From positions 1-27,435 of IMG/VR virus record IMGVR_UViG_3300037852_000085: a DNA stretch of 27,435 nucleotides; one strand, written 5' to 3'. The notes beneath the pieces were generated by a model that worked only from the letters and a program-made list of their open reading frames with translations, made no database searches and was not told where the DNA came from. Positions within the stretch are counted from its first letter, which is position 1. Each line of letters starts with the position of its first letter. The DNA comes from a virus. The position numbers and the translations under genes are program-made. Positions 3,449 through 26,367 of this stretch are shown here, one piece after another.

Positions 3449-4930
3449 CTATTGGCCCCCGCCCGCAAGAACGGAGGTCGCGCCGGGGGCGAGAGCGGAT
3501 CGAAGGGCGGCGGCGGGGACGGTCATGCGCAACGCAGCCCGCTCGCCCTCCTGCCCCGCCGCGACCGAGCGGCCAACGGGCGATTCCGTCCTCATTAATT
3601 CCTCGAGCTGCCGGATTTGCCGATCGGTGAGGTACTCTCCCAGGTGCTTGGACAGCAGACCGCCGATGCCGACCGCAGCGCCTACCGCCGGCCCAGCGGC
3701 CATGCCGGACAGGATCGATCCCGTCGCTGACACTGGCCCCGATGGCGCAAATTTGCCGACGCGGCGGGCGGCATTGGTCGCCCACGTCCCCATGACGATC
3801 TCTTCCATCTTGTCTTTGGCGTCTTGAGACAGCCCGCGCGATTTTTTATCGCTGTCCAGAATCTTGCGGATTTCCTGCCGAGCCGTGTTGATGCTGTTGG
3901 CACCCGATCCGCTCACACCGGCCCGGTGCTGCGCCACCGTCTCCGACTTTTCGATCGCCTGCAGCCGCTTGTAGGCCGCCCAATTGGCTTGGGCGTGTTT
4001 GAGAATGGCGGCGTCATAGGCGGGGTCGCCGGAAATGACGTGATGCTCGGGAACGTTGGCGATATAGCTGTCAATCGCGTCAATCGCGCGATCAGCCGCC
4101 AGCCGATCGGTTTCATTGGCGATCGGCACCCGACCGAGCAGCCGGCGCACGCCGTCAAGATCACCAATGGTGGCGCCGCCCTTGACGTTCAGCTCCTGTA
4201 CTGCCCTGAATGTGTTCGGGGCCAGATAATCGCGAAACTGATCGGCCTGAAGCGTGCTCTGAATTTCAGCCAAGAGGCCTTGCGTGCCTTCCTCGCTGAT
4301 CCGCACGTCCGATTTTTTGAGGGCTTCATAGCCGGCCTGTGCCGCGGCCTTGATCTTTTCGGTGGTTGGCAGCTCTGCTGCCAGGCGAGCGGCGCCACGC
4401 TCTGCCGCGACCACGCCGGCACCGGTCCCGCCCGCGAGCCCGCCGGCAAAGCGAGCGTATGGCTCGGCCGCCGAGCCCTCGGTGAGTTGGCCCGCCGCTT
4501 CCGAACTGAGCGCAGAAAGCGCGCCGCCGCCCGCCTTGAGCGCGAGACTGCCGGGGCCGATATAGCTCGCCGGGTTGCCGAGCACTTCGCCCACGGCCGA
4601 ACCAAATCGGCCAGCCCGCCCTTCCGGCTTGGGCAGCTCGCCCGTGACGTTTTGCTCCAAAAGTTGCTTGCTCTCTGCGGCGCCAGGCACGCCCTTCATG
4701 CCCATTTGACCGGCCTCTGCCTGTCCGATGGCGCTCGCCGCACTGGTCAGGCCGCCTGCAATTCCACCGGGGATGGACTTGAAGAAATCACCGACTGCCG
4801 AGCGGTCGCCCGTGGGCGGGGTGGTGTGTTGCGCCTTCACGCGCTCAAGCGCCTGTTCTTTGGTAGAGCCCTCCGGGCCGGTCACATCGTATTGCGTGCC
4901 ATCTGGCGCCGTGATCTCGAAATTCGGCAT
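3449..4930 (-). CDS. Probable internal virion (ejection) protein, 493 aa
   Basis: A 493-aa protein. Its start overlaps the previous stop by one base. The N-terminus MPNFEITAPDGTQYDVTGPE carries an aPDG-y-Vt-PEG pattern that I recall from N-termini of podovirus internal and ejection proteins. Residues about 45-185 are Gly/Ala-rich with amphipathic stretches (GGIAGGLTSAASAIG, FAGGLAGGTGAG), suited to membrane insertion during DNA delivery. The middle is helical and charged, and a second Gly/Ala block occurs near residues 405-430. Third of three consecutive genes occupying the place of P22 genes 7, 20 and 16. Expected to be carried in the capsid and injected to help form the trans-envelope channel. 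No lysozyme or transglycosylase motif is evident. Function comes from position and composition. Confidence 0.75.
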   Translation of the reverse strand: MPNFEITAPDGTQYDVTGPEGSTKEQALERVKAQHTTPPTGDRSAVGDFFKSIPGGIAGGLTSAASAIGQAEAGQMGMKGVPGAAESKQLLEQNVTGELPKPEGRAGRFGSAVGEVLGNPASYIGPGSLALKAGGGALSALSSEAAGQLTEGSAAEPYARFAGGLAGGTGAGVVAAERGAARLAAELPTTEKIKAAAQAGYEALKKSDVRISEEGTQGLLAEIQSTLQADQFRDYLAPNTFRAVQELNVKGGATIGDLDGVRRLLGRVPIANETDRLAADRAIDAIDSYIANVPEHHVISGDPAYDAAILKHAQANWAAYKRLQAIEKSETVAQHRAGVSGSGANSINTARQEIRKILDSDKKSRGLSQDAKDKMEEIVMGTWATNAARRVGKFAPSGPVSATGSILSGMAAGPAVGAAVGIGGLLSKHLGEYLTDRQIRQLEELMRTESPVGRSVAAGQEGERAALRMTVPAAALRSALAPGATSVLAGGGQ

Positions 4931-6312: not shown

Positions 6313-7112
6313 CCGATTGCACTCCCGGCCGCACCGCCCAAGGTACCCCCGACCATCGCGCCAGCCGGCCCGCCTACGGCCGCGCCGGCCACGGTGCCGA
6401 ACAGCTTGCCGATCGTGCCGAACACCGAGGTCAGGGAATCGCTGTAGGCTTTGTCTTGGGCGAGCTGCGCCTGCCCGGCCTGGACAAGGGCCGAATTGGC
6501 CGCGCCTTCATAGCCGAGCCCAGCGCTCTCGAAACTGAGCCCGGTCCCGGCGAAACTCGAGCCCGAGGTCAGCTCGCCCAAGCCCAGCGCGATCGTGGAT
6601 TGGATCTGCTGCTGCGCCATGACGTTGACTTGCGCGTCGTTCGCCGCGGTCTGGCCGATGAATCCGGTGTCCTGATCGGGATTGCGGCCCATATTGTAGA
6701 ATTGCTGCCGGGTCTGGTTGGTCAGCCCGGTTTCAAATTGGCCGAGCTGCGCCTTCTGCGGGTCGGTGAGTTCGCCGGCCGCCGCCTTGCGCAGCGCCTC
6801 GGTGCCCTGTCCGGTGAGCGCCGACCCCTGGCCGACCAGCGCCTGCCCCTGCCCTTGCAGGAGGCCGGCCTCCGCTTGCAGCCTGGGAACCGAGGCGGTC
6901 AATTGCCCATATTGAGCAGGCAGCTTCTGCTCGCCCTGGCTGAGCATGTAGCCCGCGCCCGCCACACCCAGGCCGAGCGCGCCGGCCTGGAGCGGCGAGA
7001 TCGAGAGGGGCGAGGAACCGCCGCTGAGACTGTTCGCGTCGGCGCTGCCGGCCCGCGGGAAACCCGAGCCCTCATACCCGATGTCGCCATAGCTGGAATC
7101 GATGAAGCTCAT
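6309..7112 (-). CDS. Probable internal virion (ejection) protein, 267 aa
   Basis: A 267-aa protein with a short Ser/Gly-rich leader, a small hydrophobic segment near residues 42-58 (LQAGALGLGVAGAGYML), a Gln/Ala/Gly-rich helical middle with repeating LLQGQGQALVGQGSALTGQG, and a C-terminal glycine-zipper-like segment (VAGAAVGGPAGAMVGGTLGG). This make-up resembles P22 gp7 and T7 gp14, small ejected proteins acting at the outer membrane. It starts one base from the stop of the Pro-rich 88-aa protein and ends overlapping the 460-aa gene by four bases. Role inferred from order, size and composition. Confidence 0.75.
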   Translation of the reverse strand: MSFIDSSYGDIGYEGSGFPRAGSADANSLSGGSSPLSISPLQAGALGLGVAGAGYMLSQGEQKLPAQYGQLTASVPRLQAEAGLLQGQGQALVGQGSALTGQGTEALRKAAAGELTDPQKAQLGQFETGLTNQTRQQFYNMGRNPDQDTGFIGQTAANDAQVNVMAQQQIQSTIALGLGELTSGSSFAGTGLSFESAGLGYEGAANSALVQAGQAQLAQDKAYSDSLTSVFGTIGKLFGTVAGAAVGGPAGAMVGGTLGGAAGSAIG

Positions 7113-7378
7113 CAGAACGCCCTCCCGAGGGGGCCTGCCAGCGGGCTAGGGGCGGCCTGTGATGGGGCGGGCGCCAGCGGGCTCCCGACAGGTGGGGCAG
7201 GAGCCGCAGGCGCACCGCCTGGCTGCGCTGGCGGCTGGCCGGCCGGCATCGGGGCTTGTGGCGGTGGAGCTCCAGCGGGGGGCTGGCCCGCGATCGGCGG
7301 GGCGCCGGGCTGCCCGCCCATGCCGAGCGCGTCCGGGAGGGGGGTGATCTTGAATTGAGACCCGTAATCGCCAAACAT
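7112..7378 (-). CDS. Proline/glycine-rich small protein, 88 aa
   Basis: An 88-aa protein with an ordered-looking N-terminus (MFGDYGSQFKITPLPDALGM) followed by about 60 residues of almost pure Pro/Gly/Ala/Gln with PPAGAPPPQAP-type runs, ending in LAGPLGRAF. It overlaps both neighbours at stop/start junctions. Likely disordered. It could be a linker, a chaperone-like partner for the ejection proteins, or a minor virion protein. No family is recognised. A second Pro-rich protein of similar style is encoded beside the scaffold gene (15657-16073). Confidence 0.7.
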   Translation of the reverse strand: MFGDYGSQFKITPLPDALGMGGQPGAPPIAGQPPAGAPPPQAPMPAGQPPAQPGGAPAAPAPPVGSPLAPAPSQAAPSPLAGPLGRAF

Positions 7379-7728
7379 CAGATTATCCCCAATGCTGACC
7401 TGATCTGTGAATGTTCGTCCCTATGGTATTGCAAGAACGAGTAAAAGTCATCTTGGCTGTCGAGGTCGATCTGGGAATAATCGACCCCGGCCGCCCCGGT
7501 CGCCTGCCGCAGCAGCTTGTGGGCGTCCATGTGGCTCTGCAGCACGGCTTTCCGGGCCGCCCCGCCGGTCAGGAACGGCAGGAGCGGATAATCCGCGATC
7601 ACGATGGGTGGGGTGAGCGAGGCGAGCACGGCCACGAATTGCATGTGCTCGCGCGCATGGCCCACGTCCCAGAAGCCGTAGCCGGGAAGGTCGTCGAAAC
7701 TCACCTGATCAGGCGCAAAGTTGGGCAT
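7378..7728 (-). CDS. Hypothetical late protein, 116 aa
   Basis: A 116-aa acidic, mixed alpha/beta protein beginning MPNFAPDQVSFDDLPGYGF, with several His residues arranged in helices (HAREHMQFV, QSHMDAHKLL, YHRDEHSQI). The His/Asp/Glu spacing suggests a helical bundle with possible metal binding, but that is speculation. It sits between the nozzle-like protein and the ejection proteins, the place of tail-closing or assembly proteins such as P22 gp26/gp14, which it does not obviously resemble. Start at ATG 7728, four bases after the stop of the 721-aa gene. Confidence 0.75.
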   Translation of the reverse strand: MPNFAPDQVSFDDLPGYGFWDVGHAREHMQFVAVLASLTPPIVIADYPLLPFLTGGAARKAVLQSHMDAHKLLRQATGAAGVDYSQIDLDSQDDFYSFLQYHRDEHSQIRSALGII

Positions 7729-13848: not shown

Positions 13849-14859
13849 TCAGATGTTCAGGAACGCGAGCCCGTCGAACTTGCCGTGCGCCTTGCACTTC
13901 ACGTCGACCAGCTCGAGCAGGGACAGGATCGCGCCGATGTAACCGAGCTGGTTGTTCGGCAGCGTCGATTCGAAACCCGTGAACGAGAACGCCGCCCGCT
14001 CGTGCAGGAACAGCGACAGGTAGTTCGTGTTGATGAGATAGAGCACGCCTTCCGGGCAGTACGGATCGGCGTAGAACGGCACGCCGGCCACGTCGAGCGC
14101 GCGGAACAGTGCTTCCGCCTTCTTGTCGGCTCCGAACGCATCGCCGGGCGTGACGACGTAGCGCTCCTGCGACGTGAAGTCCTGGGCCAGCAGCGTCCAG
14201 GTGCCGAAACCCATGATGCCGATCGATGGCATCTCGCCGGTGGTCTTGCTCACCTGCGAGATGTATTGCAGCATCAGGTTGCGGGTCGGCGTGACGTTGC
14301 CGTTGCCGTGGACGTAGGTCGATTTCCAGAATGTGTTCGTGGCGCGCGTGACGCCGCCATATGCGGCCGCGAAGGAGCCGTCATCGATCGCGGCTGGCAG
14401 CCCGATCAATTGCTGCGCATTGGCCACGTTGTTGTAGAGCGAGGTCGCGAACGTATCGATGGTGACGTTGGTCGAATCGTTCATGCGCGCTTCGATCAGC
14501 GGCACGACCGAATAATCGAGCTGAACCAGCCCTTCCATACCGAGCATGGGGATGGTCGAGACGAAGGCCTTGAGATTGAATTCGGCGTTCTGGATGCCGG
14601 GCTGCACGCCGGGTTGCTGGAACGAGCCTGAATAATCGACCCACTGGCCCGACACCATCGGGGCGCCCTGCAGCGGCGCGGTGATCGGCGACAGGCCGCC
14701 GGACGCGACTTGCGCGGCGGCGAGCAGCGCGGCCATCATCGGGGCCGACTTCCAGAGCTGCACGTAGACGCGCGGCATATAGGCGCGGCGCACCACGGCG
14801 GATAGCTCGGTTGCGACTTGTCCCGCGGCGGGGACGATTCCTGAACCGAAGACCGGCAT
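13849..14859 (-). CDS. Major capsid protein (HK97-fold expected), 336 aa
   Basis: A 336-aa protein, normal length for a phage coat protein without a delta domain or protease. Typical features include an N-terminal helical arm (ELSAVVRRAYMPRVYVQLWK), an acidic/polar long-helix region (LIEARMNDSTNVTIDTFATS), a beta-hinge (PSIGIMGFGTWTLLAQDF), then FGADKKAEALFRALDVAGVP followed by a YADPYCPEGVLYLIN stretch typical of coat P- and A-domains. It directly follows the scaffold-like gene by 20 bases and lies between portal and adaptor genes. This is the expected most abundant virion protein. The HK97 fold is inferred from pattern. Confidence 0.88.
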   Translation of the reverse strand: MPVFGSGIVPAAGQVATELSAVVRRAYMPRVYVQLWKSAPMMAALLAAAQVASGGLSPITAPLQGAPMVSGQWVDYSGSFQQPGVQPGIQNAEFNLKAFVSTIPMLGMEGLVQLDYSVVPLIEARMNDSTNVTIDTFATSLYNNVANAQQLIGLPAAIDDGSFAAAYGGVTRATNTFWKSTYVHGNGNVTPTRNLMLQYISQVSKTTGEMPSIGIMGFGTWTLLAQDFTSQERYVVTPGDAFGADKKAEALFRALDVAGVPFYADPYCPEGVLYLINTNYLSLFLHERAAFSFTGFESTLPNNQLGYIGAILSLLELVDVKCKAHGKFDGLAFLNI

Positions 14860-15656: not shown

Positions 15657-16073
15657 TCACATCGGCGGGGCCGGCGGTTCCATGCCGGCCGGGGGCTTGG
15701 CGTCGGGCGCGATGCCGGGGGGCGGGGCGGCGCTGAGCGGCCCGGCCTTCCCGGCTTGCGCCATGGTGGCGAGGCCGGCCGGAACCATGTTCTGGCCGTC
15801 GGCCTTGCCGAAAATCGGGTTGAGCGCGCTGATCGCGCGAATCAGGGCCTGCTGCTCTTTCGAGCCGGCCTCGAACGCCATCGACGAATGAAGCAGCGCC
15901 GGGATGACGGCCTTCACCTGTTGGGTGGCCGCCGCCTTGTTGCCGGCGCCGCCGCCGGGCGAGAGCATCGGGGAGCCGCCCGGCCCGCCCGGCCCGCCGA
16001 TCGGCGATTTCGGCACGATTGGGGCCGCTCCACCGGGAGGGCCGCCTTGCGGAGGGGGTTCGGGCATCGGCAT
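15657..16073 (-). CDS. Pro/Gly-rich protein with helical core, 138 aa
   Basis: A 138-aa protein with a Pro/Gly-rich N-terminus (MPMPEPPPQGGPPGGAAPIV), a helical central part near residues 45-90 (AVIPALLHSSMAFEAGSKEQ, then QALIRAISALNPIF) and a Pro-rich tail. It is the first gene after the terminator at 16155-16202. No Shine-Dalgarno sequence precedes the ATG at 16073, and a TTGACA element lies about 32 bases upstream, so leaderless initiation from a local promoter is possible. Starts at the third codon (Met) are also possible. Function unknown; common place for head-assembly helper proteins between portal and scaffold. Confidence 0.75.
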   Translation of the reverse strand: MPMPEPPPQGGPPGGAAPIVPKSPIGGPGGPGGSPMLSPGGGAGNKAAATQQVKAVIPALLHSSMAFEAGSKEQQALIRAISALNPIFGKADGQNMVPAGLATMAQAGKAGPLSAAPPPGIAPDAKPPAGMEPPAPPM

Positions 16074-16080
16074 GCCCGCA

Positions 16081-16110
16081 TTGGTAGTCCCATTTTCGGT
16101 GCTGTGTCAA
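16081..16110 (-). promoter_or_regulatory. Possible leftward promoter for the head-gene block
   Basis: On the minus strand a perfect TTGACA lies at 16110-16105. A weak -10 candidate TACCAA (3 of 6 matches to TATAAT) follows 18 bases later at 16086-16081. Predicted transcription start would be at or next to the ATG at 16073, giving a leaderless mRNA; the gene has no visible ribosome-binding site. A promoter here makes sense because a strong leftward terminator lies just upstream. The -10 is weak, so this is tentative. Confidence 0.35.
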
Positions 16111-16154: not shown

Positions 16155-16202
16155 AGAAAAACCCCGCCGGGGGCAGGGGGAGGGAGGCCTGGGCGGGGTT
16201 TC
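16155..16202 (-). terminator. Strong intrinsic terminator, leftward
   Basis: A perfect 10-bp inverted repeat pairs 16159-16168 (aaaccccgcc) with 16192-16201 (ggcggggttt), with a 23-nt loop. On the minus strand the stem is followed by TTTTTCTTT, a good U-tract. On the plus strand there is no T-tract beyond the stem, so it acts mainly leftward. It lies 40 bases after the stop of the 15-codon Arg-rich ORF and separates terminase/portal genes from head genes. Confidence 0.85.
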
Positions 16203-16241: not shown

Positions 16242-16289
16242 TTACTTCCTGCGGCTCCGACGCCCTCTTCGCTTGTGTCTGCGCTTCAT
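16242..16289 (-). CDS. 15-aa arginine-rich micro-ORF
   Basis: ATG at 16289, TAA at 16244-16242, product MKRRHKRRGRRSRRK: eight Arg, three Lys and one His in 15 residues. A strong Shine-Dalgarno GGAG (16301-16298) is spaced 8 bases from the ATG. Two perfect palindromes lie just upstream and a strong terminator just downstream, so the ORF looks like a deliberate end-of-transcript unit between portal and head genes. Possible roles are DNA condensation or packaging aid, nucleic-acid binding like the very basic J peptide of microviruses, or a regulatory leader. All are inference. Such a short ORF could also be chance, but the ribosome site and composition argue otherwise. Confidence 0.6.
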   Translation of the reverse strand: MKRRHKRRGRRSRRK

Positions 16290-16299
16290 TTTCGTTTCT

Positions 16300-16330
16300 C
16301 CACATGTGGTTAGAACTGGACTTGCAAGTC
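16300..16330. promoter_or_regulatory. Paired perfect palindromes upstream of the Arg-rich micro-ORF
   Basis: Two perfect palindromes lie 9 bases apart: CCACATGTGG at 16300-16309 and GACTTGCAAGTC at 16319-16330. They sit between the portal stop codon and the micro-ORF. The first partly covers the GGAG ribosome site of the micro-ORF (16301-16298), so an RNA hairpin there could limit its translation. Alternatively they are protein-binding sites. Seen directly; function not known. Confidence 0.5.
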
Positions 16331-16360
16331 AAATATGAACCAAACCGGTGGAAATTGCAA

Positions 16361-18112
16361 CTACCCGACCGCGCGGGGCTTGGCGTGGGGCTTTTGCTCG
16401 GGCGGCATGGCGGCGCGCATCGCGGCCTGCCGCTTCTGGCGCTGGCGCAGCGCATGGATGAGATTGTCCCGGTTCGGCGGATTGATGAGCCGCAGCAGGC
16501 CCTCCTGGTCGATCGCCTGGGCCTTGAACAGGCCGCCAGCCATCTCCTTGGTGTCGTCGGCGAACAGCGGGGAGTGTGAATGGCCGGCGACCCGCAGCGT
16601 GAAGTCGCTCACCAGGTTGTGGTAATAGAACGGGTCGCCCCGGCTGCCGTCCTCTTTCGGGTCGGGCTGGATTTCATCGTCGTTGTTGCGCATCTGCAGC
16701 TTGAGGTTCAGGTCGCCCATCTTGACCAGGGGCGCCTCGAGCTTCACAGCGGTTTTCTTGATCCGGCCCGAGCCGGTGGACGAAAGCTGCTTGGCGTGCT
16801 CTTTCGAGCGCACGCCCGACGCGCCCTTGCCTTGGAGCACCTCGGTCAAGCCCGACGCCTCGATGAACAGCGCGCCGATCTGCATGTAATCGGCGAAGAT
16901 GTCGTCGGGCATCTCGGGATAAAGCTCCTTGATGCTGGCTTGCGGGAGTTGGTCCATGACCCACGAATCGGCGCCGCCGAAAGCGTCCATCTTTTCCTCG
17001 GTCAGCCCGAGGAAGCCCGAGCCGACGCGCGGCGGGTAGGCCTGCCGGTCGAGAATGTCGTGAATCTGCTCCAGCCGTTCGTTCGACCAGATTTGCAGCG
17101 GGATCAGCGATTCGATGTGCGCCTTGCCGAAAAAGTACTCGTCTGCGTCATAAGGTCGCACCTGGACGAAGGGGTGCTCCTTGGGGAAAAACGGATTGCA
17201 TTTGGTGTTGTAGAACTGCTTCTGCTGCTCGTCGATCTTCTCGGGGATCAGCTTGTTGTTTTTCGAGAGCGCCGCGATGACGGTCTTGGAATCCGACAGG
17301 ATGATGTCGCCGGGATCGAGCGCGATGAAGACCCGGTAGTCCTCGCATTCATCGTCCCACACGTAGCATTCGTGCAGCGCGACCAGCGGGCGGTCGACCT
17401 TGGCGTGGTAGGTCGGGCGGCCCAGGAACGTCGGATTGATCGCGCCCGAGTTGGTGCCGCTGATGTTCTCGCCGCCGGTCGATGCGATGATCATGCGGGT
17501 GATCAGCTCGGGGAACGGCGATTCGAACGGCGTGTTGACGACGGTCAGGTCCTTGATCCTCTCGGCGAGGCCGGCGCGGATCAGCCGTTGGCAGGCGTTG
17601 TCGTAATCGATGTGATAGCTGTGGACAAAGGCCTGTTGCGCATCGAGGTCGGGGTTTTCCTCCGCGAACACGCCGAATTTCCAGGGCTGGACCAGCGTGC
17701 ACGTCGCCTCGTCGCGCACGTCATGCCAGCCGACCTTGAGCAGCATCGAATCGTATTCGAGCGCGCGGATGATCGCCTCGCCGAAATAGTCGAACATGCC
17801 GGCATCGCGGAAGTCGCGGTTGAACGCATCTTCCGCCGCCATGAACTGCTTGACCATGGCATCCTCGGAATTGAGCGGCGCCGACAAGGAGAATTGCGCA
17901 TGATCGGGCGAGTAGAGAAACGACGCGACCAGATCGAGATGCGATTCGATCCGGTTGTAGATGACGTTTGCCTGGTCGTCGGCGGTGCCGTACAGGAAGA
18001 ACGCGCGGCGCCGATTGTACATGTCCTTGCGGTCCTTCTTGGACTCCAGGCATGTGTCGACGATGAACTTGATGTAATCGGATTTGTCCGGCTCGGTTTC
18101 GGGGATGATCAT
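16361..18112 (-). CDS. Portal protein, 583 aa
   Basis: A 583-aa protein. The N-terminal region (KKDRKDMYNRRRAFFLYGTA, then IYNRIESHLDLVASFLYSPD) and the middle signature (HPFVQVRPYDADEYFFGKAH, then LIPLQIWSNERLEQIHDILD) are typical of podovirus portal proteins, where the last segment is the clip/stem helix region. Next comes a region resembling the tunnel-loop part, then a basic Gln/Arg/Pro-rich C-terminus. It forms the dodecameric vertex through which DNA enters and leaves. ATG 18112 overlaps the stop of the 63-aa gene by four bases. Terminase upstream and head genes downstream support the call. Confidence 0.88.
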   Translation of the reverse strand: MIIPETEPDKSDYIKFIVDTCLESKKDRKDMYNRRRAFFLYGTADDQANVIYNRIESHLDLVASFLYSPDHAQFSLSAPLNSEDAMVKQFMAAEDAFNRDFRDAGMFDYFGEAIIRALEYDSMLLKVGWHDVRDEATCTLVQPWKFGVFAEENPDLDAQQAFVHSYHIDYDNACQRLIRAGLAERIKDLTVVNTPFESPFPELITRMIIASTGGENISGTNSGAINPTFLGRPTYHAKVDRPLVALHECYVWDDECEDYRVFIALDPGDIILSDSKTVIAALSKNNKLIPEKIDEQQKQFYNTKCNPFFPKEHPFVQVRPYDADEYFFGKAHIESLIPLQIWSNERLEQIHDILDRQAYPPRVGSGFLGLTEEKMDAFGGADSWVMDQLPQASIKELYPEMPDDIFADYMQIGALFIEASGLTEVLQGKGASGVRSKEHAKQLSSTGSGRIKKTAVKLEAPLVKMGDLNLKLQMRNNDDEIQPDPKEDGSRGDPFYYHNLVSDFTLRVAGHSHSPLFADDTKEMAGGLFKAQAIDQEGLLRLINPPNRDNLIHALRQRQKRQAAMRAAMPPEQKPHAKPRAVG

Positions 18113-18792: not shown

Positions 18793-20661
18793 TCAAGGAA
18801 CCGAGATATTCATCCGCTTGAGGTAGTTCCCGATCAGCCGGTCCACCGGCTGGGTCCCGCCGCGCTCATCGATCTCGGCCGAGCGGGCAAGCGTCAGGTT
18901 CATCGCCTTCAACCGGGGCTGCACCCACATGTTCCAGCCCTGATAGGCCAGCGCCGCGCCCATGACCCGATCGTCCTTGGCGCGGCCCTCGGCCCCGATG
19001 TGACCCTCATCGTTGACGATCCGGCGCATTTCCTCGAGCAGCGGGACCGAGCGCGGGACGATGCGGCCGAGCTCCACCCCGTTCTTGTACTGGTTCATCA
19101 TGCGTATCTTCAATTCGTGCGTGGTTTTCCACTGATAGACCAGCCCGCCGCTCAGCGAATCGATCCGCTTGTAGAAATAGTGCCGCATGTTGGCGAGAAT
19201 AGCCCGGATATTGTAGTCGTCGTTGCCGGGCTTCATTTCCGCGGTCAGCTTTTGCACCTTTTGCAGCTCGTCGAACACGGCTTGGCCCGGTCCCGTCATC
19301 TCCAGCACCGGCATGCAATAGGTGAGCCCGTAATAACCGCAGAGGTGGGCCAGCACCCAGGCAAATTGATAGGTCGACGGCTCGGCCGAGCAAAATTCGG
19401 CGACCTGGACGAAGGCGTCCGAATAGCAGCGCCAGACCGACGCGCAGCTCCGGTCGGCCTGGTCGCTGGAGCCATAGGCGGGGTCGCCGCCGAGCGCGTA
19501 ATAACCGAATTTGCTGGCCTCTTCCCAGACCCGCAGCGAGGCGCGCGGGTCCTTGAGGCTCTGTAGCGTGGTTTCCTCGAATTTGTGTGTCAGCTTGTAG
19601 CGGTAGGCCTTGAACGGGTGCTTCTTGGCCTCGCGCGTGCACGCGGTCAGTGCCTCGACGGTGAAGAATTTAGAGCCGGTGGCCTGGAAGGCGTCGTCCT
19701 CGGTCCAGGGGTATTCCTGATCCATCAGGGCTTGGTCGCCGTCCTTCTCGGATTCTAGGTGCCAGCGATACCAAGCCACCTGCTGGAGCGATATCTCGAA
19801 GCCGTAGGCCTCCCGGACCTCGCGGATGCGCTTGCGCTCGAGCGGCAGCAGCGCGCTCGCCAGGCCGTCCGGCATGTATTTGCCAAAAAATGGGTGGTCG
19901 AGCGGCAACTGGTTGCGCTCGTCCCGCCACCAGCCGACGAAAATCACCCGTTTGGTCGGGTCCTTGCGGGACATCTCCCACATGTCCCAGAACCAATTAA
20001 AGCCGTTCGCCGTGGTCTCGTAGATTTGCAGCCGGTGCGGATAGAGGGACGAGGTTTGCGAGCGGAATTCGCTCAGGTCATCACCGTTGCCGTAAAACGC
20101 AGTCTCGGTGGAATGAACGAAATTAGCAGAACCGGAACGACCGAGCCCGCCCTTGCGGTTCTCGCTCGTGCCGGCGATAAGATAGCGAAATTTGCTGCCG
20201 TTTTTGAGGATAAGCAGGTTACGATTATGGCGAACGTACTTGACCAGAAAACCCTTAGGCGTCTCGGCGAAGAAGACCTCGATCGCAGCCCGGAAATCAT
20301 CGCGGCTTTCCTCCTTGTGGGTCAGGAACACGCCCAATAGGCCCTTGTGCTCCATCGCCCAGAACGTGTCGAGCAGCAGGAAAAAGGTCGATGAGCCGAG
20401 CTGCCGGGCCTTGAGGATGACGAAGGTCGTTATGCCGGCGGCCAGCCCGTCGCATATCTCGTCCAGGATATAGAGCTGCGAGCCGAGCAGTCGGAACGGC
20501 ACCAGCCCGTAATCCTTCGACTGCACCTTGCATTTCGAAATGAAGGCCAGAAACCGCGCCCGCGGGAACGGCGCAACCTTGGTGAAGGTGAGCTCAAACC
20601 GCTCGGGCTCGGTGCGCGGCGGTTCCGGGGTCGACGCGATCGGGACGAAAGTATCGGCCAT
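18793..20661 (-). CDS. terL: Terminase large subunit, 622 aa
   Basis: A 622-aa protein of normal terminase length. The ATPase domain has a Walker-A-like KARQLGSSTF at residues 84-93 and the STETAFY element at 184-190 in the Walker-B/catalytic-Glu place. It continues with LQIYETTANGFN, the coupling-motif region. The nuclease domain has GGDPAYGSSD (D393), LEMTGPG (E454) and KDDRVMGAALAY (D563/D564), the three acidic clusters expected for the RNase-H-like fold. It pumps DNA through the portal and cuts concatemers. The ATG follows directly on the TGA of a 35-aa membrane peptide gene. No recognisable small subunit is present upstream, which is notable. Confidence 0.93.
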   Translation of the reverse strand: MADTFVPIASTPEPPRTEPERFELTFTKVAPFPRARFLAFISKCKVQSKDYGLVPFRLLGSQLYILDEICDGLAAGITTFVILKARQLGSSTFFLLLDTFWAMEHKGLLGVFLTHKEESRDDFRAAIEVFFAETPKGFLVKYVRHNRNLLILKNGSKFRYLIAGTSENRKGGLGRSGSANFVHSTETAFYGNGDDLSEFRSQTSSLYPHRLQIYETTANGFNWFWDMWEMSRKDPTKRVIFVGWWRDERNQLPLDHPFFGKYMPDGLASALLPLERKRIREVREAYGFEISLQQVAWYRWHLESEKDGDQALMDQEYPWTEDDAFQATGSKFFTVEALTACTREAKKHPFKAYRYKLTHKFEETTLQSLKDPRASLRVWEEASKFGYYALGGDPAYGSSDQADRSCASVWRCYSDAFVQVAEFCSAEPSTYQFAWVLAHLCGYYGLTYCMPVLEMTGPGQAVFDELQKVQKLTAEMKPGNDDYNIRAILANMRHYFYKRIDSLSGGLVYQWKTTHELKIRMMNQYKNGVELGRIVPRSVPLLEEMRRIVNDEGHIGAEGRAKDDRVMGAALAYQGWNMWVQPRLKAMNLTLARSAEIDERGGTQPVDRLIGNYLKRMNISVP

Positions 20662-25751: not shown

Positions 25752-25805
25752 CGGTCTGGGAGACAGCGGCCGGGAGGGTATGATGGGCGTTGTCATCCAG
25801 ATTCG

Positions 25806-26015
25806 TCATGCGCGGGCAGCCTCGCGGTTGGGGCTGAAAACGGCGGGATTGACTTCGGAGCCGGCGAGCGCCTGCGAGAAGGCGAGGAACTTCGCCGGTG
25901 GGATGAACCCGCGCTTCTTCCAATTACTGACGGCTGACATGCCCACGCCCGCCAAAGAAGCGGCAGCGGCAGGGCCTCCAACGGCCGTGATCACGGCATC
26001 GACGGTATCGAGCAT
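25806..26015 (-). CDS. Cro/YdaS-like repressor, 69 aa
   Basis: A 69-aa protein with the N-terminal HTH: AVITAVGGPAAAASLAGVGM then SAVSNWKKRGFIPP, the GGp-a-A-xLaGV-x-x-AVSNWK-RG-IP pattern of Cro/YdaS-type phage regulators. The C-terminus is short and helical. It is the first gene of the leftward string, opposite the CI-like gene. The promoter at 26022-26050 places the transcription start at its ATG, so translation is predicted to be leaderless. It likely binds the TTCACG-N3-CGTGAA operator(s) and helps set the lytic state. Confidence 0.8.
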   Translation of the reverse strand: MLDTVDAVITAVGGPAAAASLAGVGMSAVSNWKKRGFIPPAKFLAFSQALAGSEVNPAVFSPNREAARA

Positions 26016-26021
26016 TCCGGG

Positions 26022-26050
26022 AGAATATTCACGGCGCGTGAACTTGTCAA
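26022..26050 (-). promoter_or_regulatory. Leftward early promoter with operator O1 in its spacer
   Basis: Minus strand: TTGACA (-35) at 26050-26045, a 17-base spacer, TATTCT (-10) at 26027-26022. The spacer contains the perfect 15-bp palindrome TTCACG-GCG-CGTGAA at 26028-26042. A repressor bound there would block RNA polymerase. The start site falls at the ATG of the Cro-like gene (26015), and no ribosome site is visible. Confidence 0.85.
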
Positions 26051-26103
26051 CCCATCACGGATTGGCAGTGGATTGTTCCCCATTTTCGCGGTTCAAAACG
26101 GCC

Positions 26104-26367
26104 ATGGCCGAGACCGCGAAAACCATTGGAAATAGGCTATTAGTGACGCGTGAGGCGCTCGGCCTCAAGGCCGCGGAAGTGTGCCGGCGGATCGGGTGCA
26201 AGGCGAATCGCTGGTCCCAATATGAAAGCGGTGAGCGCAAGATCACCCTGCCGGTGGCCAATCGGCTCTGCGACGAATACGGGCTGACCCTCGATTGGAT
26301 ATACCGGGCCGACCCCGCCAGGCTACCGCACGAATTGCGCCTCAGAATGCCGAGAACTGCCGCTTAA
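26104..26367 (+). CDS. CI-like XRE-family repressor, 87 aa
   Basis: An 87-aa protein with a clear HTH-XRE domain: NRLLVTREALGLKAAEVCRR, then IGCKANRWSQYESGERKITL, the GLK-x-x-EV-x-R-IG-x-K-x-NRWSQYESGER core, followed by a helix (ANRLCDEYGLTLDWIYR). No C-terminal peptidase domain, so it is not a LexA/CI-type self-cleaving repressor and induction must work differently. Start: ATG 26104 (MAETAKTIG); an in-frame GTG at 26068 is possible, and neither has a good ribosome site. It sits between O1 and O2-O4, the expected place of the lysogeny repressor. Rightward, opposite to the Cro-like gene. Confidence 0.83.
   Translation: MAETAKTIGNRLLVTREALGLKAAEVCRRIGCKANRWSQYESGERKITLPVANRLCDEYGLTLDWIYRADPARLPHELRLRMPRTAA

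Follow-up and report, generated by a model that had tools for sequence, protein, structure and literature searches.

The space between the portal gene and the following head genes of a tailed phage from soil holds an open reading frame of only fifteen codons, most of them for basic residues. This raises the question of whether so short an ORF is a gene at all and, if it is, what its product might do. We analysed positions 1 to 27,435 of the IMG/VR record IMGVR_UViG_3300037852_000085, and refer to this whole stretch of 27,435 nt as the window. The features of the window on which the analysis relies are the following.

18793–20661, minus strand: terminase large subunit (phrog_2, E=5e-12)
16361–18112, minus strand: portal protein, 583 aa, directly upstream of the micropeptide gene (31% identity over 95% to the annotated portal of MW202753/MW202825)
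16332–16360, minus strand: promoter-like TTGCAA-17-CATATT, directly 3' of the portal stop codon (8/12 matches, weak in the window)
16298–16301, minus strand: Shine-Dalgarno GGAG with 8 nt spacing (AGGAG-type site in nearly all relatives)
16242–16289, minus strand: micropeptide gene, MKRRHKRRGRRSRRK and stop (translation; kept in 78 of 80 portal-bearing loci; synonymous-only pattern)
16157–16201, minus strand: intrinsic terminator, stem AAACCCCGCC/GGCGGGGTTT and U run
16081–16110, minus strand: promoter-like TTGACA-18-TACCAA, 7 nt 5' of the ATG of the next gene
15657–16073, minus strand: next head-cluster gene, 138 aa, no family, with a start that appears near-leaderless
13849–14859, minus strand: major capsid protein, MCP (phrog_9953, E=7e-27)

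An earlier note on this DNA had described a 15-residue Arg/Lys ORF without stating its strand. The ORF is on the minus strand and runs from 16289 to 16242 (ATG, 14 codons and TAA), and its translation into MKRRHKRRGRRSRRK, with Arg, Lys or His at 12 of 15 residues, bears that description out. The GGAG ribosome site that the note had placed 8 nt 5' of the ATG is seen at 16301–16298. The intrinsic terminator that it had seen downstream is also there: a G+C-rich stem (AAACCCCGCC…GGCGGGGTTTTT, 16201–16157), with GGCGGGG in the 3' arm and then a T run, begins 41 nt past the stop codon. The position between portal and head genes holds as well, with the portal ORF ending at 16361 and the next head-cluster ORF starting at 16073. 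The portal stop codon occupies 16363–16361, and TTGCAA-17-CATATT starts immediately after it.

Conservation at the portal junction and selection on the peptide

When IMG/VR was scanned for the portal, 21 loci were obtained first and 80 once an alignment was used as the query. We scored 80 portal-bearing loci, each with a mapped portal end and sequence beyond it, for the short basic ORFs that the earlier note had proposed to look for at related portal junctions. A basic (Arg/Lys/His) micropeptide ORF of about 11–22 residues with a ribosome site was present downstream of the portal in 78 of the 80, the exceptions being L006, whose contig stops 428 nt past the portal, and L067. When a fixed ORF test (9–25 aa, at least 65% RKH, ribosome site) was applied to the 80-odd related loci, it returned 66 ORFs in 80 kb of portal-junction sequence versus 4 in the other 1.49 Mb. 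Since numerous loci are almost identical in sequence, these counts and that of the 78 loci are not independent. Three of the four off-junction ORFs are displaced or inverted copies of the micropeptide gene.

We also performed a portal-blind scan of 2.9 million viral contigs using two degenerate patterns (AGGAG, spacer, ATG, basic codons). It matched 72 stretches, including four chance matches in long ORFs. The remaining matches lie nearly all 100–300 nt past a portal homologue and before the MCP, with portal identity down to 24–31%, and for several in which a portal was initially not found, a phrog_156-type portal or a phrog_9953-type MCP adjoins the peptide. The portal proteins of divergent relatives match the phrog_156 portal, and even at portal/MCP identities as low as 23–25% the micropeptide still lies between the two genes.

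Codon differences were counted in 36 independent close pairs. Single-nucleotide differences were synonymous in 160 cases and non-synonymous in 6, compared to an expectation of 52 and 114 (p~1e-71); all pairs together gave 447 synonymous and 20 non-synonymous differences. Although choosing basic ORFs could bias this test, the filter corresponds to about 55–60% basic residues, well under the 80–90% observed, and the bias is therefore not forced. Arg codons interchange freely among the copies, and amino-acid exchanges are mostly between K and R. Since the codon changes are overwhelmingly synonymous, selection appears to act on the peptide itself, and we take this as strong evidence that the micropeptide is selected as a peptide, under strong purifying selection. 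Translation of the ORF, which the earlier note had claimed, is strongly supported by the same bias.

Short ORFs are frequent in G+C-rich DNA, and a chance ORF would be the simplest alternative. We give it practically no credence, as it is refuted by the presence in nearly all scored loci, the junction enrichment, the portal-blind scan and the excess of synonymous differences. Judged by these sequence comparisons, the micropeptide gene is a real gene, conserved across a large and mostly uncultured group of phages.

The usual length of the peptide is 11–17 residues. Its composition is about 48% R, 20% K, 10% H and 10% G, with almost no acidic or hydrophobic residues, and it is probably unfolded. 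The conservation of a core His-[KR]-[KR]-Gly, or [RK]-H-[KR]-R-G, among micropeptides hints at a function beyond bare charge.

Expression signals, variants and loss

In most copies the gene is a free-standing cassette, and in much of the group it is predicted to be its own transcription unit. Terminators were found within 200 nt 3' of the gene in 76 of 101 copies, compared to 10 of 101 shuffled sequences. The upstream promoter signal is weaker across all copies (57 versus 36 shuffled), with TTGACA or TTGACG overlapping the portal stop codon or directly following it in many close relatives. Beyond the terminator, a TTGAC-17/18-TA-type promoter ends about 7 nt 5' of the next gene's ATG in 45 of 100 copies, compared to 4.8% of shuffles. 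Promoter-like sites before the micropeptide gene and before the next gene are thus recognisable in part of the group. The short distance to the ATG suggests that the late transcript of the next head gene is near-leaderless. In L052 (1762, minus strand) the whole cassette is inverted between the portal and the next gene, and in L082 and L085 inserted genes have moved the micropeptide about 2 kb downstream; these inverted and displaced copies suggest that the micropeptide acts as its own gene.

Several details of the junction can be added. In close relatives such as L008, L011 and L014, the -35-like TTTGACA of the micropeptide promoter contains the portal stop codon TGA. The downstream promoter shared by the window and its relatives has the conserved form TTGACG-18-TATCAA, that of the window being TTGACA-18-TACCAA (16081–16110). 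In two copies (L019:8363 and L070:4588) a good ribosome site is followed by what looks like an ATC or ATA start codon, and both have an insertion upstream. L002, L019 and L070 have additional ORFs, HNH-like by eye, inserted between portal and peptide, and a 176-aa ORF after the portal in L124 (3846–4376) matches HNH endonuclease families.

Close relatives carry a hairpin, GGGCG-[variable stem]-CG(A/C)CC, directly before the ribosome site of the micropeptide gene. Its inner stems covary and are paired, with G-U pairs (25 unique stems, combined chi2 167 on 50 df), and of the 25 times that the hairpin occurs in 2.8 Mb of strand sequence, about 18 are right upstream of the micropeptide gene. Neither the window nor the divergent and aquatic members that encode the peptide have this hairpin. 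The fold of the window transcript is no more stable than those of shuffles (z +1.4), and we therefore claim no structured leader for the window; an Rfam search of the junction gave no match. In those relatives that have it, the hairpin may stabilise the mRNA or serve as a site to which the peptide binds.

The micropeptide is Arg-rich in soil members and more Lys-rich in aquatic members, where it often occurs as a tandem pair, for example MYKAHKRGRKTRR and MRKARKHKRK. Both Manatee Spring phages (MW202825 and MW202753) have such a pair. Some variants have an N-terminal extension (e.g. MNYKDIKADIAKRENAAHGRRGKRHKRRGRR), one version has 53 aa, and the oriented contig L110 contains at 6681–7450 three basic micro-ORFs of 16, 17 and 34 aa, which overlap or abut one another, and after them longer basic ORFs, so that very basic proteins form a small group there. 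To judge by the tandem copies, the 53-aa version and the run of basic ORFs in L110, selection may act on the sum of positive charge.

A scan with the MCP as query gave at least 584 relatives, of which 80 were kept. In a derived aquatic subclade (L201, L215 and others, 11 rows of the tree), the neighbours and head genes are the same and the micropeptide is missing. The earlier note had held that conserved flanks without such an ORF would speak against the gene; this arrangement is confined to that one subclade and perhaps L171. On the MCP tree of 52 rows, the presence/absence label changes 4 times, compared to a mean of 16.4 when shuffled. The tree, whose deep placements on long branches are uncertain, fits early presence with one loss in the aquatic subclade, and absence in L171 and in the Mx8/Mx9/BUCT555-type outgroup. 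This pattern points to early presence with later loss rather than to a chance ORF. In the isolated phages with distant MCPs (Mx8, Mx9, BUCT555, 45A6, KPP25, ppBjS10J-1 and a TM7 phage), no such ORF was found between portal and MCP. A portal scan of genome contigs for hosts gave no relatives. The corresponding MCP scan gave 8 contigs (L165–L172) binned to MAGs of Acidobacteriota, Pseudomonadota, Balneolota, Saccharimonadota and Chloroflexota, and as these bins are too inconsistent across phyla, we name no host.

Possible functions of the micropeptide

The composition leaves binding to nucleic acid or to an acidic surface as the main options. The reading that we favour, and to which we assign about an even chance, is that the peptide is expressed late and strongly, binds nucleic acid and neutralises the DNA packaged by a tailed phage. 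A part in genome condensation or packaging had already been suggested in the earlier note, and it would still be the most plausible role. The micropeptide would be made in large amounts, late and together with the head proteins, would bind nucleic acid through its charge, and would be packaged with the phage DNA or act on it. Phosphate would then be neutralised during genome filling or retention in the head, and a tailed phage with a packaging motor would have a peptide that acts like a protamine. The constant place in the head cluster, the separate expression signals and the multiplied or lengthened basic peptides favour such a bulk role with packaged DNA. The aquatic subclade stands against it, and since the peptide was lost there while the same head genes were kept, it would not be indispensable. 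The conserved core, with its hint of a function beyond charge, also counts against it. So does a charge survey in which motor-driven tailed phages form a group of their own, separate from viruses with a capsid charge that follows the genome charge (PMC7096446), and it is this separate cluster of ATP-driven tailed phages that would make the peptide notable here.

Microvirus J and gokushovirus VP8 are Arg/Lys-rich DNA-binding proteins of 25–40 aa (PMC3091885) and, like the micropeptide, are very small and encoded with capsid genes. However, they are found in small icosahedral phages with ssDNA and no terminase motor, and their gene lies beside the MCP F/VP1, whereas the micropeptide belongs to a phage of the dsDNA tailed type and has terminase, portal and a tailed-phage-type major head protein as neighbours. 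With 15 aa in the window and 11–17 in most relatives, it also falls below the length range of J/VP8, and we found no homology between them. Adenovirus core peptide X (mu), a 19-residue Arg-rich peptide in the mature virion, helps condense dsDNA (PMC7998265). It is cut from a larger precursor by the viral protease, whereas the micropeptide would be made directly from its own micro-ORF, and the viruses are unrelated. As virus type, length and making differ, the micropeptide is a member of neither J/VP8 nor mu. What would be new is a small basic viral peptide, of a known and here presumed nucleic-acid-binding kind, in an unexpected type of virus. Internal head proteins of the T4 IP type and the ejection proteins of P22 are packaged in the tailed-phage head with the DNA. 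These proteins are full-sized, unlike the micropeptide with its 11–17 residues; internal head proteins of tailed phages are treated in PMC9026906 and PMC8402733.

Charge alone cannot separate DNA binding from RNA binding, and the main rival to DNA packaging is an RNA-binding regulator, that is, a free-standing arginine-rich motif that would bind the hairpin in its own leader (autoregulation) or other late transcripts. The arginine-rich motifs of N-type proteins bind boxB, and the RNA-binding part of N-type antiterminators resembles the micropeptide in length and Arg/Lys content, with a hairpin near the gene in a subclade. The covarying hairpin right before the gene in close relatives and the conserved core [RK]-H-[KR]-R-G would agree with such a regulator. 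However, N-type antiterminators combine the Arg-rich motif with a host-factor-binding region, whereas nearly all versions of the micropeptide are a basic segment only, and peptides of 11 residues have no second domain. The hairpin, unlike in an N-type system, occurs only before the micropeptide's own gene in close relatives; it is missing in the window and in divergent and aquatic members, all of which have the peptide, and as a leader it could merely stabilise the mRNA. We consider an RNA-binding regulator rather unlikely on balance.

A host-directed polybasic peptide, binding host nucleic acid, ribosome or membrane for shut-off, anti-defence or help in lysis, is distinctly unlikely in our view: cationic peptides are capable of such action and the cassette is expressible alone, but the gene is always in the head cluster and not among early or lysis genes, its composition is kept over hosts and habitats that must differ, and the peptide has no hydrophobic part. 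The gene neighbourhood would also suit a head-assembly cofactor bridging acidic surfaces of scaffold, portal and capsid, for which packaging with DNA is not required, and the N-terminally extended versions such as MNYKDIKADIAKRENAAHGRRGKRHKRRGRR resemble an anchor with a basic tail. Most versions, however, lack the anchor part, and one subclade builds heads without the peptide, so that we regard this role as improbable. Finally, a short ORF followed by a terminator is what one would see in a cis-acting leader peptide or attenuator that uses its Arg codons and terminator to regulate the head genes behind it. The promoter of the next gene, where recognisable, lies beyond the terminator and the L052 copy is inverted, which contradicts this mechanism; other copies are in tandem or displaced by about 2 kb, and it is the amino acids rather than particular Arg codons that are conserved. 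Taken together, the separate transcription unit and the inverted copy mean that a leader peptide cannot be the general explanation, and we leave it only a very slight chance.

With respect to the favoured packaging of DNA, we tentatively propose a wider possibility, in which this large and for the most part uncultured set of tailed phages, filling their heads by an ATP motor, would also make protamine-like micropeptides (down to 11 residues) that neutralise packaged DNA. In some of these phages the supply of the peptide would be tuned by its binding to a conserved leader hairpin. If the micropeptide is packaged, some tailed phages would add their own condensing peptides to the motor, like small ssDNA phages and adenoviruses, and this would explain the charge balance in those phage heads. 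The gene class lies far under the size limit of gene callers, is conserved across phages of considerable breadth and is central in the packaging cluster; the cassette with basic codons at the portal junction provides a search recipe for other missed micro-genes.

Annotation and further ORFs

The expectation in the earlier note that gene callers miss such ORFs agrees with the GenBank annotations of MW202825 and MW202753, which omit the micropeptides; both copies in MW202825 are unannotated. For the longer homologues (21–53 aa), no match was found in Pfam, PHROG or NCBIfam, which speaks against membership of these versions in a known curated family, the 15-aa peptide being too short for such searches. 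The 31-aa homologue had a PDB match at chance level only, and tblastn of the 53-aa version in phages gave no match, as expected for a low-complexity sequence. No description was found in the literature covered, outside of which lie most subscription papers and the small phage gene catalogue of Fremin et al. 2022.

In the MW202825 annotation, the first micropeptide (8277) is overlain by a hypothetical CDS called on the other strand (L023:8246–8506, minus strand). In the window, a 493-aa ORF at 3449–4930 (minus strand) matches phrog_21712 'major head protein' (E 3e-22), besides the MCP at 13849–14859; either it is a second head-like protein or phrog_21712 is misnamed. A 195-aa ORF at 25780–26367 (plus strand) has a transcriptional regulator/repressor match, which hints at possible lysogeny control.
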